Below, in pieces: positions 21,312 to 24,986 of a stretch of 64,000 nt of DNA (within the stretch, counting starts at the first letter, position 1; the number at the start of each line of letters is the position of its first letter). Both the position numbers and the translations under genes were made by a program. The stretch spans positions 1 to 64,000 of the forward strand of contig NZ_JAVIFT010000007.1 of assembly GCF_031157355.1 (NCBI RefSeq), written 5' to 3'. The DNA is from Hyphomicrobium sp. LHD-15. GTDB lineage: Bacteria; Pseudomonadota; Alphaproteobacteria; Rhizobiales; Hyphomicrobiaceae. Under the pieces are notes generated by a model. It was given only the letters and a program-made list of their open reading frames with translations, was not told where the DNA came from and did no database searches.

Positions 21312-22184
21312 TCAGGGCCAGCGCTTCAATGCCGTGCGCGGGAACGTCCATTCCGGCGTCACGAGTTCGTTGCCGATAGGCGTCGTGTACCAGGGCGTGC
21401 CGTCAACGCTGTTGGGGTTTTTCAGGATGTGCATGTCCTGGGCCGGCATGTAGCTCTGCAGCAGCAAGAAGCGCTTTTCGCCAGTCGCTTTGTTCTCGAC
21501 CATGTCGGCGACGAGCACGGCGTGGCCCGGAAAACCTCCCTTGATGAAAACATCGCCGATGGCGATTGAGTCCGGCGCGACCGCCTTCAGCTCCCGCTCG
21601 AGCGAATAGGTGCCGGCGTAGGCGAACACGAGGTCCATGTATTTGCGAAGGCCGGGGTGGTCGCTGCGCTTCGTCGCCGAGAAGCGGCGGCGTTTGCCGT
21701 CGGTGTCGTTGAAAGCGATCTCCTTGTCGCGGTTCTGGCTGAACAGCCATTCGGCGCGCAACCGCATGATGGCATCGGCGCACTGCTGGAGGTCGCGCTT
21801 GCCGATGTCGATATCGACGACGGCTGCGTGCACGTCCTGCCGCCATTTGCGTGCGCCGGTGTAGGTGAGAACGGGGGCGCCCTCGGGCCGCATGGGGAGG
21901 CCGCGCAGCCAGGCTGCGAAGCTGTCAACGGGAGCAGATACGCGCTCGAAGCCCGGCGGCGGCGCGACGCGCGCGGCGAGCGTCGCTGACGCGACGGATG
22001 CGGTTTCGGCCGGTAGCCAGCCGTAGGGCGCACGGGCGTGGGCGATCGGTGCGGCGGCAAGCGTCGCCAGAAGGAAACCCAACGCTATGCGCCCGCAACG
22101 CCAGAAAAGGCGTGTTTGCGGGTGCCCGCGGTCGTTCTGGGTTGCCTGAGTTCGCGACGGGAGGGGGACGGAGATCAGCTTCAT
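21312..22184 (-). CDS. DUF4846 family exported protein
   Basis: About 290 residues. After a signal or anchor (CGRIALGFLLATLAAAPIAHA) comes a DUF4846-type domain: GFERVSAPVDSFAAWLRGLPM, QQCADAIMRLRAEWLFSQ, GDVFIKGGFPGHAVLVADM and FLLLQSYMPAQDMHILKNP. The GGFPGHAV-type motif is diagnostic of the family, whose function is not known. The start at ATG 22184 gives a normal N-terminus, but no good ribosome site is seen; 22304 is the longer choice. The promoter may lie far upstream, because about 650 bases without a clear gene precede it. Confidence 0.8.
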   Translation of the reverse strand: MKLISVPLPSRTQATQNDRGHPQTRLFWRCGRIALGFLLATLAAAPIAHARAPYGWLPAETASVASATLAARVAPPPGFERVSAPVDSFAAWLRGLPMRPEGAPVLTYTGARKWRQDVHAAVVDIDIGKRDLQQCADAIMRLRAEWLFSQNRDKEIAFNDTDGKRRRFSATKRSDHPGLRKYMDLVFAYAGTYSLERELKAVAPDSIAIGDVFIKGGFPGHAVLVADMVENKATGEKRFLLLQSYMPAQDMHILKNPNSVDGTPWYTTPIGNELVTPEWTFPRTALKRWP

Positions 22185-22838
22185 GCGGATTGGCTCGCAC
22201 GCAATCGTGGCAAGGCCGCGACGTGGCGTGCGTCTCTCCCTGCTCGCGGTGTGCTGAGCTACAAAGACATGAGCCCGCCGGAGGAGGTGTCCGGGCGGGC
22301 TCACGCGATCGCGGTCGAGGACATCTGCAATGACTGCGGCAACGGCGCATGGTCCGGCTTCAGGTCGTCAGGGGCGGTTTCGCCCACGCCGATGGCCGAA
22401 TGGCCGCTCCGCTTTGCGTCCTAGCCTGCTGATCTCCCTTTCGCGGACCTTCAGCTTTCTGCGCCGTCTCCCAATCTGGGCCATGCCGGCAGCCTCGGTT
22501 TCGAGGCGCTTGCTTGCGCTAGGCTGGGCTTGCTCTGGGCTGGCCAGCACTAGCCTCGCTGCTATCGGCCCGTACGGTGCTCTGGTCCTGTGTGCGCAGC
22601 CGGGGTCCCTTTCGCTCCCAACGGCTCGCTCGATCCATCTGGCCGACTGGGCTGGCTCCCGATCACTGGTCTTGCCAGGTGGGATCTACCAACGGTTGCC
22701 GATCCAGGATCTGACGATCGAATGCACAGGCTCTCACCGCGATGCCGGAGCGCTCGCAGATGATCTGAAGTATCCACGTGTCACGTTCGAAATTGTTTTT
22801 TGATGCCGTCCGACAATTGCTGGGCTGAAGCCCGGCAA
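22185..22838. other. 650-base stretch with no convincing gene
   Basis: Open frames exist on both strands (for example plus 22330-22803), but their codon use is relaxed compared with neighbours, they lack ribosome sites, and I recognise no protein. On the minus strand this stretch lies downstream of the 13-codon ORF and its hairpin and upstream of DUF4846. It could be a long leader, a non-coding RNA or a decayed gene. Confidence 0.4.
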
Positions 22839-22857
22839 TCAGAATGCTTCGGACGGC
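22802..22857 (-). ncRNA. Nested hairpin overlapping the end of the 13-codon ORF
   Basis: Outer arms GCCGTCCGA (22805-22813) and TCGGACGGC (22849-22857) pair perfectly. Inside them TTGCTGGGCT (22817-22826) pairs with AGCCCGGCAA (22829-22838), with one G-T pair and a two-base loop. On the minus strand the 5' outer arm lies in codons 8-11 of the small ORF, so a ribosome reading the ORF would open the outer stem. There is no U-run, so it is not a classic terminator. Confidence 0.5.
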
Positions 22858-22880
22858 TCATACTGATCCGGTGGCCACAT
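22839..22880 (-). CDS. 13-codon small ORF (leader peptide or small protein candidate)
   Basis: The product would be MWPPDQYEPSEAF. It is supported by three signals rather than by homology: a perfect Shine-Dalgarno AAAGGAGG at 22890-22897, nine bases from the ATG; a TTGACA-N17-CACAAT promoter just upstream; and a hairpin that shares sequence with its 3' end. I recognise no known leader peptide. It could be a regulatory uORF controlling the downstream RNA, or a real small protein. Confidence 0.5.
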   Translation of the reverse strand: MWPPDQYEPSEAF

Positions 22881-22911
22881 TTTCTTAGACCTCCTTTCAG
22901 TTAATACGAGA

Positions 22912-22940
22912 ATTGTGCGCCTGCTCACTCGCGCTGTCAA
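22912..22940 (-). promoter_or_regulatory. Sigma-70 type promoter for the 13-codon ORF
   Basis: On the minus strand TTGACA (22935-22940) and CACAAT (22912-22917) are separated by exactly 17 bases. Transcription would start near 22905, about 25 bases before the small ORF ATG. The -35 box is perfect and the -10 box matches four of six positions. Confidence 0.6.
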
Positions 22941-23143
22941 TTCACGAAGTATGTGCAAGCTGTGGGTGTTCGTAGTTAAGGGATCGTTGAGGTCGCGGGC
23001 GTAGATTGGACCATCCGATTTCCCGGCGTCTCTGGGAGTCCTGCTCGGCGCTTTGCCAGCTTTCATTTTCAAAGCCTGATCCCATGGCTACGGGCCGGTT
23101 CTTTGCTCGGCCTTCGATCAGGCCCAAGCCTCACGAGGCTCGC

Positions 23144-23455
23144 ATGAGATCGACGATCGGCTTCTTCTCGTTTCTGGCTTTCGGCGTTTTGGCCGCCGGT
23201 GTGCTGACGGTGATGGGCGCAGGCCCCAGCGTGGAGTTTTCGTTCGACGATGCGGTCGCGAGCCTCGATCGCTCGGGACTGCATGTGGGTTCGCTGTTGA
23301 TCGGTCTCGTGCTCGGGTTCGTGCTCTCGGCGCTCGCACGCGTTTCGTGGGCGGAGCTGCCGCGTCGGTTCGTCTCTTGGCTCCTGCAGTACGAGCGCAG
23401 TTTTTACCGGCTGGCGCTGGTTGCGATCTTCATCGGCATCGTCGCGTTTTACTAA
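23144..23455 (+). CDS. Small membrane protein of unknown function
   Basis: About 103 residues from the ATG at 23144. Three hydrophobic segments are visible: FFSFLAFGVLAAGVLTVMGA, LLIGLVLGFVLSALARV, and LALVAIFIGIVAFY at the very end. A short polar loop (SFDDAVASLDRSG) lies between the first two. No family was recognised. Longer upstream starts would add a region of poor codon use and overlap the divergent promoter, so I do not use them. A shared terminator lies 34 bases past the stop. Confidence 0.68.
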   Translation: MRSTIGFFSFLAFGVLAAGVLTVMGAGPSVEFSFDDAVASLDRSGLHVGSLLIGLVLGFVLSALARVSWAELPRRFVSWLLQYERSFYRLALVAIFIGIVAFY

Positions 23456-23488
23456 GTGAGGCGCCGCGCTTTCGCAGTGTGCCCAACA

Positions 23489-23518
23489 AAAAGGCCCGGC
23501 AAAACTGCCGGGCCTTTT
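23489..23518. terminator. Bidirectional Rho-independent terminator
   Basis: A 13-bp stem (AAAAGGCCCGGCA with TGCCGGGCCTTTT) around a four-base loop, with A and T runs on both sides. It lies between the plus-strand membrane gene and the 3' end of glnA, so it ends both transcripts. Confidence 0.92.
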
Positions 23519-23573
23519 CTCTTCCCCCGTCGCGAATTGGGAGCCGTAGCTCTTCGGTCGGACCTATGACGGT

Positions 23574-24986
23574 TTAGACCGAGTAGTACATGTCGAACTC
23601 GACCGGATGCGGCGTCATCTCGTAGCGCATGTTTTCGGCCATGCGCAGCTCGATGTAGGCGTCGATCATGTCGTCGTTCATGACGCCACCGGCCTTCAAG
23701 AAGGCGCGGTCCTTGTCGAGGGCGGCGAGGGCTTCGCGCAAGCTGCCCGCAACGGTCGGGATCTTGGCGAGCTCTGCCGGCGGCAGGTCGTAAAGGTTCT
23801 TGTCCATCGGATCGCCCGGATGGATCTTGTTCTGGATGCCATCGAGACCGGCCATCAGCATCGCGGTGAATGCGAGGTACGGATTGGCGCCCGGATCGGG
23901 GAAGCGGATCTCGATGCGCTTCGCCTTCGGGCTGGTCACGACCGGGATACGGCACGATGCCGAGCGGTTGCGAGCCGAGTAGGCGAGGAGCACGGGGGCT
24001 TCGTAGCCCGGCACGAGACGCTTGTAGGAGTTCGTCAGCGGGTTCGCGAAGGCGTTGATGGCCTTGGCGTGCTTCAGGATGCCGCCGATGTAGTAGAGGC
24101 AGATATCCGACAGGTCGGCGTACTTGTTGCCGGCGAACATCGGCTCGCCGCCCTTCCAGATCGACTGGTGCACGTGCATGCCCGAGCCGTTGTCGCCGAA
24201 GATCGGCTTCGGCATGAAGGTCGCCGTCTTGCCATAGGCCTGCGAAACCTGGTGGACCACGTACTTATAGATCTGCAGGTGGTCGGCCATGGTGATCATC
24301 GGGCCGAACTTGATGCCGAGTTCGTGCTGAGCAGCGGCGACCTCGTGATGGTGCTTCTCGACGGTGACGCCCATCTCGGTCAGGACCGAAAGCATCTCGG
24401 AGCGGATGTCCTGGCAGCTGTCGATCGGGGGAACCGGGAAGTAGCCGCCCTTGACGCGCGGACGATGGCCGAGGTTGCCCATCTCGTACTCGGTCGAGGT
24501 GTTGGTCGGCAGCTCCGAGCTGTCGACCTTGTAGCCGACGTTGTACATGTCGGTAGAGAACTTCACGTCGTCGAAGATGAAGAACTCGGCTTCGGGGCCG
24601 AAGAATACCTTATCGCCGATGCCGAGCGAGAGCATGTAAGCCTCGGCCTTCTTGGCGATGGAGCGCGGATCGCGCTCATAGGGCTGGCCAGTCAGCGGCT
24701 CGATGACGTCGCAGAAAATGGCAACCGTCGTCTGCGCGAAAAACGGGTCGACGTGAGCCGAAGCCGGATCGGGCTTCAGGAACATGTCGGAGCTTTCGAT
24801 GCCCTTCCAGCCGGCAATCGACGAGCCGTCGAACGCGTAGCCCTCGAACATGGCTTCGTCGACCGTGCTCACGTCGGCGGTGACGTGCTGCATCTTGCCC
24901 TTCGTGTCCGTGAAGCGAAGGTCGACGAACTTAACGTCCTTGTCCTTGATCAGCTTCAGGACATCATTGACCGTTTTCATAAACAC
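23574..24986 (-). CDS. glnA: Glutamine synthetase type I
   Basis: A 470-residue GSI-beta glutamine synthetase making glutamine from glutamate, ammonia and ATP. Normal length, with the N-terminal beta-grasp ([19 protein letters not shown]), the [17 protein letters not shown] segment and metal-site motifs [16 protein letters not shown] and [38 protein letters not shown] is covered by [11 protein letters not shown] onward. The adenylylation site [12 protein letters not shown] indicates GlnE control. AAGGGGAGTG precedes the ATG. It lies 53 bases behind glnB and shares its promoter region. Confidence 0.98.

Follow-up and report, generated by a model that had tools for sequence, protein, structure and literature searches.

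Two small RNAs offer points of comparison for the element described here: rnTrpL, whose leader ORF has Trp codons, and GlnZ, as the sRNA derived from the glnA 3′UTR of Enterobacteriaceae is named. rnTrpL/peTrpL of Sinorhizobium meliloti is an alphaproteobacterial dual-function sRNA with a 14-codon leader ORF (PMC10117765, PMC7298713), and the enterobacterial 3′UTR-derived sRNA lies downstream of glnA (PMC9731577). Short ORFs also head Mg2+ transporter operons of Salmonella: mgtQ is a very short ORF with a strong Shine-Dalgarno sequence, on which the ribosome is reported to be destabilised or stalled near the start, and with an overlapping stem-loop (PMC8092293), and mgtL is likewise a mini-ORF of such an operon (PMC5021804). 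The Downstream-peptide motif/yfr6 of cyanobacteria is a short RNA of ~250 nt with a small ORF (PMC2864571), and screens of intergenic regions have yielded the ilvB, fthC, odc1 and cysS uORF motifs, in which a mini-ORF is combined with conserved stems (PMC11109978, PMC8632094). The window that we analysed, a 64,000-nucleotide stretch of Hyphomicrobium sp. LHD-15 (contig NZ_JAVIFT010000007.1, positions 1 to 64,000), carries on its minus strand a member of what is apparently an undescribed structured RNA family, present once per matching genome of the Hyphomicrobium family, often near glnA, and in many families.

The locus begins with a sigma-70 type promoter (22912..22940), recognised in the sequence, by a promoter scan and by comparison of loci, and consisting of the -35 box TTGACA (22940-22935), a 17 nt spacer and CACAAT (22917-22912). 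It is the sole promoter-like site in a scan of 22000-23600, where 0.3 were expected; TTGAC is present in 69 of 70 loci (the exception is L076), followed exactly 17 nt later by CAnnnT in 55 of the 70. The Shine-Dalgarno sequence AAAGGAGG (22890..22897), with a core GGAGGTCTAAGAAAATG that is conserved in relatives, lies 9 nt before the ATG at 22880, and this opens a 13-codon ORF, MWPPDQYEPSEAF plus stop (22839..22880), of which the conserved portion is M-x-P-P. A stem, P1, overlaps the ORF: its 5′ arm GCCGTCCGA (22849..22857) starts at ATG+23 (0-based) and runs from base 3 of codon 8 to base 2 of codon 11, and pairs perfectly over 9 bp with the 3′ arm TCGGACGGC (22805..22813), enclosing an inner hairpin (22817..22838) that is not conserved in sequence. 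The motif AACAATTTCGA (22787..22797; consensus GACAATTTGAA) stands 5-11 nt past P1 in most relatives. This local RNA of 116 nt folds with z = -5.3 relative to shuffles. Direct reading thus confirms the minus-strand promoter, Shine-Dalgarno sequence, 13-codon ORF and 9-bp stem overlapping its 3′ end of the original prediction, which had also made its case depend on conservation of ORF, ribosome site and stem in close relatives; the block is conserved there, and the comparative data rule out chance. That prediction lacked the further ~500 nt of conserved unit that extend to a terminator, and Met-x-Pro-Pro as the strongest peptide signal.

Abutting the -35 box, CTTGCACATACTTCGTGAA (22959-22941) is largely kept in Hyphomicrobium relatives and is possibly a regulator site. 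The mini-ORF is also in frame with an open stretch of 77 codons from 23072, and we considered and rejected a longer gene: the stretch crosses the conserved promoter, and a relative (L009) has a single-base indel between promoter and Shine-Dalgarno sequence.

From promoter and terminator positions and from conservation profiles we predict a structured transcript of ~640 nt (22265..22905); the predicted 644-nt RNA folds with z = -5.1. It would end at an intrinsic terminator, GAGCCCGCC...GGCGGGCTC-ATGTCTTT (~22265..22306), whose T-run is weak: a stricter scan demanding more T rejected it and a looser rule (a hairpin of <= -16 kcal/mol with a T-run) accepted it, and its hairpin is conserved in the four aligned Hyphomicrobium relatives. 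By the looser rule 48 of 69 loci have a terminator, whose end lies 255-627 nt away from the Shine-Dalgarno sequence, compared with 0, 3 and 3 of 69 in three sets of shuffles; the other 21 loci have none by this rule. In alignments of relatives, conservation extends from about -80 into the RNA body and falls after the terminator in four of the six groups compared (Methylopila, 0.87 to 0.31; g25, 0.86 to 0.47; g22, 0.89 to 0.48; g23, 0.70 to 0.34), with no clear drop in Hyphomicrobium (0.66, 0.38, then 0.53) and none in the close pair L071/L072. Because conservation mostly ends at the intrinsic terminator we regard the RNA as free-standing; an independent promoter and terminator, the mark of a dual-function small RNA, are present in sequence at the loci counted above. 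That the block is the head of an independent structured RNA gene with its own promoter and terminator, with a predicted length of ~640 nt here, is well supported by these comparisons.

The body of this RNA is conserved mainly within groups. A candidate hairpin, P2 (22652..22678), with GATCGG in its loop, occurs in all five of five Hyphomicrobium loci and in the Methylopila group, where 11 sequences show, in most single folds, a body hairpin with a conserved GATCGGA loop on a changing stem, and where compensatory pairs are found at 4 of the 19 pairs of the body domain (10 sequences). A search for GATCGG-loop hairpins gave good stems in 18 of 89 loci, against 2-8 in shuffles; 13 of the 18 belong to Hyphomicrobium or the Methylopila group and the other five are within chance. 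Between families, k-mers of the body are hardly more shared than in shuffles, the exceptions being the ACAATTTGAA motif and the sequence of the terminator, and a model (R2) gave no significant match in 65 sources. Indels of one or two bases, with no codon phase, occur in the body of three g25 sequences. A long-range pairing of GGUCU with the AGAC motif was inspected by eye, proved inconsistent and was dropped, and a mobile element was rejected, plasmid and phage matches being short and weak (E about 6-7).

By blastn against 60 related genomes, clear matches come from G001, G004, G006 and G007, which share the window's genus, and from many genera across the family. The pattern GAGGTCTAVGAMAATGNNNCCNCC matched 33 of 103 family genomes, once each, while its reversed control matched none; presence is patchy, with no pattern match in the other 70, nor in three of the eight genomes of the window genus, one of which (G003) carries part of the promoter where a contig ends. 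Allowing up to one mismatch, the GGAGG-type pattern matched 53 of 347 genomes of the order and, in a phylum-wide draw, three of 398, all three from Hyphomicrobiales. A search with the exact pattern through a collection of 84,980 named species genomes yielded 48 stretches, 40 of which repeat loci already in our set; many are labelled Hyphomicrobium, Filomicrobium, Methylopila, Rhodomicrobium, Tepidamorphus, Afifellaceae or related taxa, and among the MAGs some labels are generic or doubtful.

A covariance model (R1), built from 20 sequences with 7 pairs and running from the promoter to the motif, matched 62 of 347 order genomes at E<=2e-4, and recovered genus g35, which the pattern had missed and which reads MTPP. 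Eight more genomes reached E<=0.1, and of the two whose sequences we read, L224 is a genuine member and L223 is not. Two chance matches (L100, without a promoter, and L159) and the unrelated L223 were dropped before counting. Genus g11 has no member by pattern in 22 genomes, nor by R1 in those of its genomes searched; other genera of the family keep the RNA, and a clade-wide loss is likely. In 376 genomes of the class, R1 matched seven at E<=0.01, of which one is the window genome and the remaining six belong to other orders. All six have the Shine-Dalgarno sequence and M-x-P-P, and in the stretches fetched five have glnA upstream and two have parE downstream; L252 is a seventh member from outside Hyphomicrobiales, and three of 19 relatives of G980 matched. 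In the other-order members L246-L249, L251 and L252 the body is compact and includes a GCCCG...CGGGC-like hairpin, in several also a GGTG...CACC hairpin, and a stem resembling a terminator.

We surveyed the neighbourhood of 89 loci with seven query proteins, mostly within 1.5 kb of flank. glnA lies upstream on the same strand in 34, often with another gene between it and the RNA; where longer flanks were available, glnB precedes glnA and an nnrD-type gene faces away. Downstream there is DUF4846 in 19 of 89, parE in 13 and an AhpC/TSA-type gene facing the other way in two, and none of these three within the fetched stretch at the remaining loci. At least one of glnA, DUF4846 and parE is found at 48 of the 89 loci, none of the seven queries at 28. 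Pfam names among the neighbours are P-II, glutamine synthetase, YjeF_N/Carb_kinase, DUF4846, DNA gyrase B/HATPase and AhpC-TSA. No Pfam family matched the reverse gene at 23006-23455. We infer a single ancestral site, flanked by glnA and parE, around which the neighbours have changed and from which the RNA has sometimes moved or been lost. In the window, the longest DUF4846 reading frame (22304-21312) overlaps the RNA terminator at its 5′ end, and therefore the real gene start is probably further in.

Very probably such an RNA gene exists and its mini-ORF is translated, a joint judgement drawn from comparison. Since R1 includes both the promoter and the Pro codons, MxPP in its matches is partly built in, and the unbiased test is a search that omits those codons. 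GGAGGTCTAVGAMAATG alone matched 30 of 347 order genomes, and 29 matches continue NNN-CCN-CC (MxPP); the thirtieth, L159, is a chance match inside a longer ORF, so MxPP is present in 29 of 29 genuine loci. Further counts come from 87 sequences, most of them retrieved by patterns or a model containing the Pro codons (CCNCC). Pro-Pro is conserved as amino acids, as expected of an EF-P-dependent Pro-Pro pause element; the third base of codon 3 is A in 40, G in 28, T in 12 and C in 7, while codon 2 (T43 S16 L9 W6 and others) and codon 5 (G27 D18 K18 E7 T7 A5 and others) vary. A stop within 15 codons of Pro4 is found in frame in 80 of the 87, versus 31 and 30 in the other two frames. MxPP is kept where the start is not AUG (TTG in L213, L246 and L248; CTG in L252, then A-P-P). 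The mini-ORF varies from 6 to 40 codons; only MxPP is conserved, later codons being dictated by the stem. It holds only two Pro codons, and there is no proline gene among the Pfam-named neighbours.

P1 was aligned by hand on its stem positions because MAFFT alone left the 3′ arm unaligned. The alignment covers 49 of 70 loci; the 21 omitted, Methylopila among them, have no clear stem at +23/+24, and the pair counts are therefore biased to stem-bearing loci. In the 46 loci counted (L045-L047 left out, four long-loop loci kept), 164 of 184 cells show a formed pair at pairs 5-8, where shuffling of partners leaves 102 +/- 4.9; for 33 distinct arms the figures are 116 of 132 and 69 +/- 4.6. Across all loci with enough sequence, mean best-stem weight peaks at ATG+23 (17.4, baseline ~10.4), and the best stem lies at +22 to +24 in 55 of the 77 loci having a good stem. 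In L010, L019, L062 and L064 P1 spans 130-177 nt, as if hairpins had been inserted, with the arms still paired.

The register of P1 is set by the start codon rather than the Shine-Dalgarno sequence, because loci in which the two are 8 nt apart instead of 9 (9 of 89) keep the stem near ATG+23: it is at most 2 nt away in seven of the nine (the exceptions are L212 and L224). MxPP also stays at ATG+6 in these loci, a distance that the searches favoured. As the frame is selected and the overlapping stem is real and covarying, ribosome and P1 are mutually constrained. P1 at +23 was not seen in five folded orthologues from other orders, and the sequences of the Methylopila group place it a few nt further downstream; for these reasons the SD-MxPP core would be older and the gate proposed below would have been added to it later.

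Comparison of loci thus supports the RNA unit, translation of the mini-ORF, Pro-Pro, P1 and the register that P1 keeps with the start codon; that the unit is transcribed, that ribosomes pause on it, that P1 acts as a gate and that there is any action in trans we infer. Our best model, held at a little short of even confidence, is a ribosome-gated, independently acting structured RNA in which P1 gates the RNA body. The transcript would start from its own promoter ~8 nt before a near-perfect Shine-Dalgarno sequence, and a ribosome would start the mini-ORF, whose sole conserved content is Met-x-Pro-Pro and an early stop. Slow Pro-Pro bond formation, for which EF-P is the factor, would halt this ribosome with its leading edge at the base of P1, and P1 would form ahead of it; a ribosome passing the prolines would have to open P1 and would end inside or just before it. 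The state of P1 would then set the folding or survival of the remaining RNA, which comprises the ACAAUUU motif and a structured body ending at the terminator, and the RNA would report translation or EF-P status, acting elsewhere in trans.

A pause at Pro-Pro seems likely to us from the sequences. Pro-Pro slows peptide bond formation and EF-P relieves this (PMC4176338, PMC5021804), and EF-P is encoded in the window genome. The mRNA protected by a ribosome is reported to extend to +17 from the P site (PMC6238534), which for a P site occupied by Pro4 predicts an edge near nt 26; the first nucleotide of P1 is nt 24. Gly and Asp are among the residues reported to favour pauses after PP (PMC4176338), and one or the other directly follows Pro-Pro in 45 of the 87 sequences. 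Against a pause, the residue before Pro-Pro is Thr in 43 of 87, Ser in 16 and Leu in nine, reported as weak PPP-pause contexts in E. coli (PMC4176338), and Lys follows in 18 of 87. A broader reading, that this is a class-old alphaproteobacterial free-standing regulatory RNA that senses EF-P or translation speed, its activity depending on the rate at which a ribosome crosses an obligatory N-terminal Pro-Pro, and is no gene's leader, we think somewhat unlikely.

It is unlikely, in our estimate, that the strong Shine-Dalgarno sequence and slow mini-ORF merely park a ribosome that shields a regulatory RNA from 5′-end-dependent decay, with no switching, P1 doing no more than border the ribosome footprint and the RNA body. 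Such a stabiliser would suit the near-perfect Shine-Dalgarno sequence near the predicted 5′ end, the weak peptide constraint beyond MxPP and the SD-MxPP core without visible P1 in other orders; yet alone it would leave unexplained the precise start of P1 at ATG+23 and its covariation, as well as the selected early stop codon. CCNCC can also pair with GGAGG, which gives an RNA-level reason for part of the Pro-Pro conservation. Carried further, CCNCC would be kept in order to hide the Shine-Dalgarno sequence and the peptide would be irrelevant, which we consider decidedly unlikely: the pairing is possible at nearly every locus (22894-22870 in the window), with a mean segment energy of -5.9 kcal/mol, but opposite the middle A only 12 of 87 sequences have a U and 68 have a non-pairing A or G, early stops are frame-specific, and the distance from ATG to CCNCC is fixed at 6 (a distance favoured by the searches) while that from the Shine-Dalgarno sequence to ATG varies.

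The original prediction had read the layout as an attenuator or ribosome-gated switch. The comparative evidence bears out what such a leader-peptide arrangement shares with a switch, a short translated ORF in a selected frame, a strong Shine-Dalgarno sequence and a covarying stem overlapping the 3′ end of the ORF, and in the window a terminator does lie between the RNA and DUF4846. A classical attenuator, in which leader translation would control read-through into the next gene, is nevertheless highly unlikely: that gene varies across the 89 loci, DUF4846 and parE accounting for the 19 and 13 given above, no constant, matching structural gene is found in the transcript, and the RNA has its own terminator in 48 of 69 loci, which where found ends 255-627 nt from the ribosome site and past which conservation falls in four of six groups. 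Selection on the frame would also fit a small mRNA whose product is the peptide, a reading that we find barely credible given that MxPP alone is conserved over a length of 6-40 codons, that later codons are set by the stem and that the body indels lack codon phase in the one group tested.

The design of the ribosome-gated RNA that we prefer would be rare: a non-coding RNA headed by a Pro-Pro mini-ORF that recruits a ribosome and keeps a constant spacing to a covarying stem. If the pause is real, it would offer a natural, testable read-out of how fast bacteria translate Pro-Pro, and would clearly exemplify a non-coding RNA that needs a ribosome to work. No Rfam family matches the window or any of 10 loci at the gathering cut-off, and L252 matches none at E <= 1; sub-threshold matches near the terminator (sodF_sRNA on the other strand, Rhizobiales-2, ar14, CC3664, mir-86) were taken as chance. 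A literature search by titles and abstract openings, which included few subscription papers, found no description of this RNA.

We regard rnTrpL, mgtQ and yfr6 as functional analogues and claim no kinship between them and the present RNA. The main texts of the two screen reports (PMC11109978, PMC8632094) contain no word beginning hyphomicrobi or rhizobi, and the uORFs described there are tied to a downstream gene. The cyanobacterial yfr6 belongs to another phylum, and its conserved part is reported to be a 5′ UTR (PMC2864571). The sRNA derived from the glnA 3′UTR differs from the present RNA, which has its own promoter and often another gene before glnA. mgtQ and mgtL are cis elements of mgtB and mgtA, whereas the present RNA is free-standing and has a conserved Pro3-Pro4. 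Finally, rnTrpL is leaderless and a trp attenuator (PMC10117765), in contrast to an RNA with a strong Shine-Dalgarno sequence, Pro-Pro, P1 and no fixed downstream gene.
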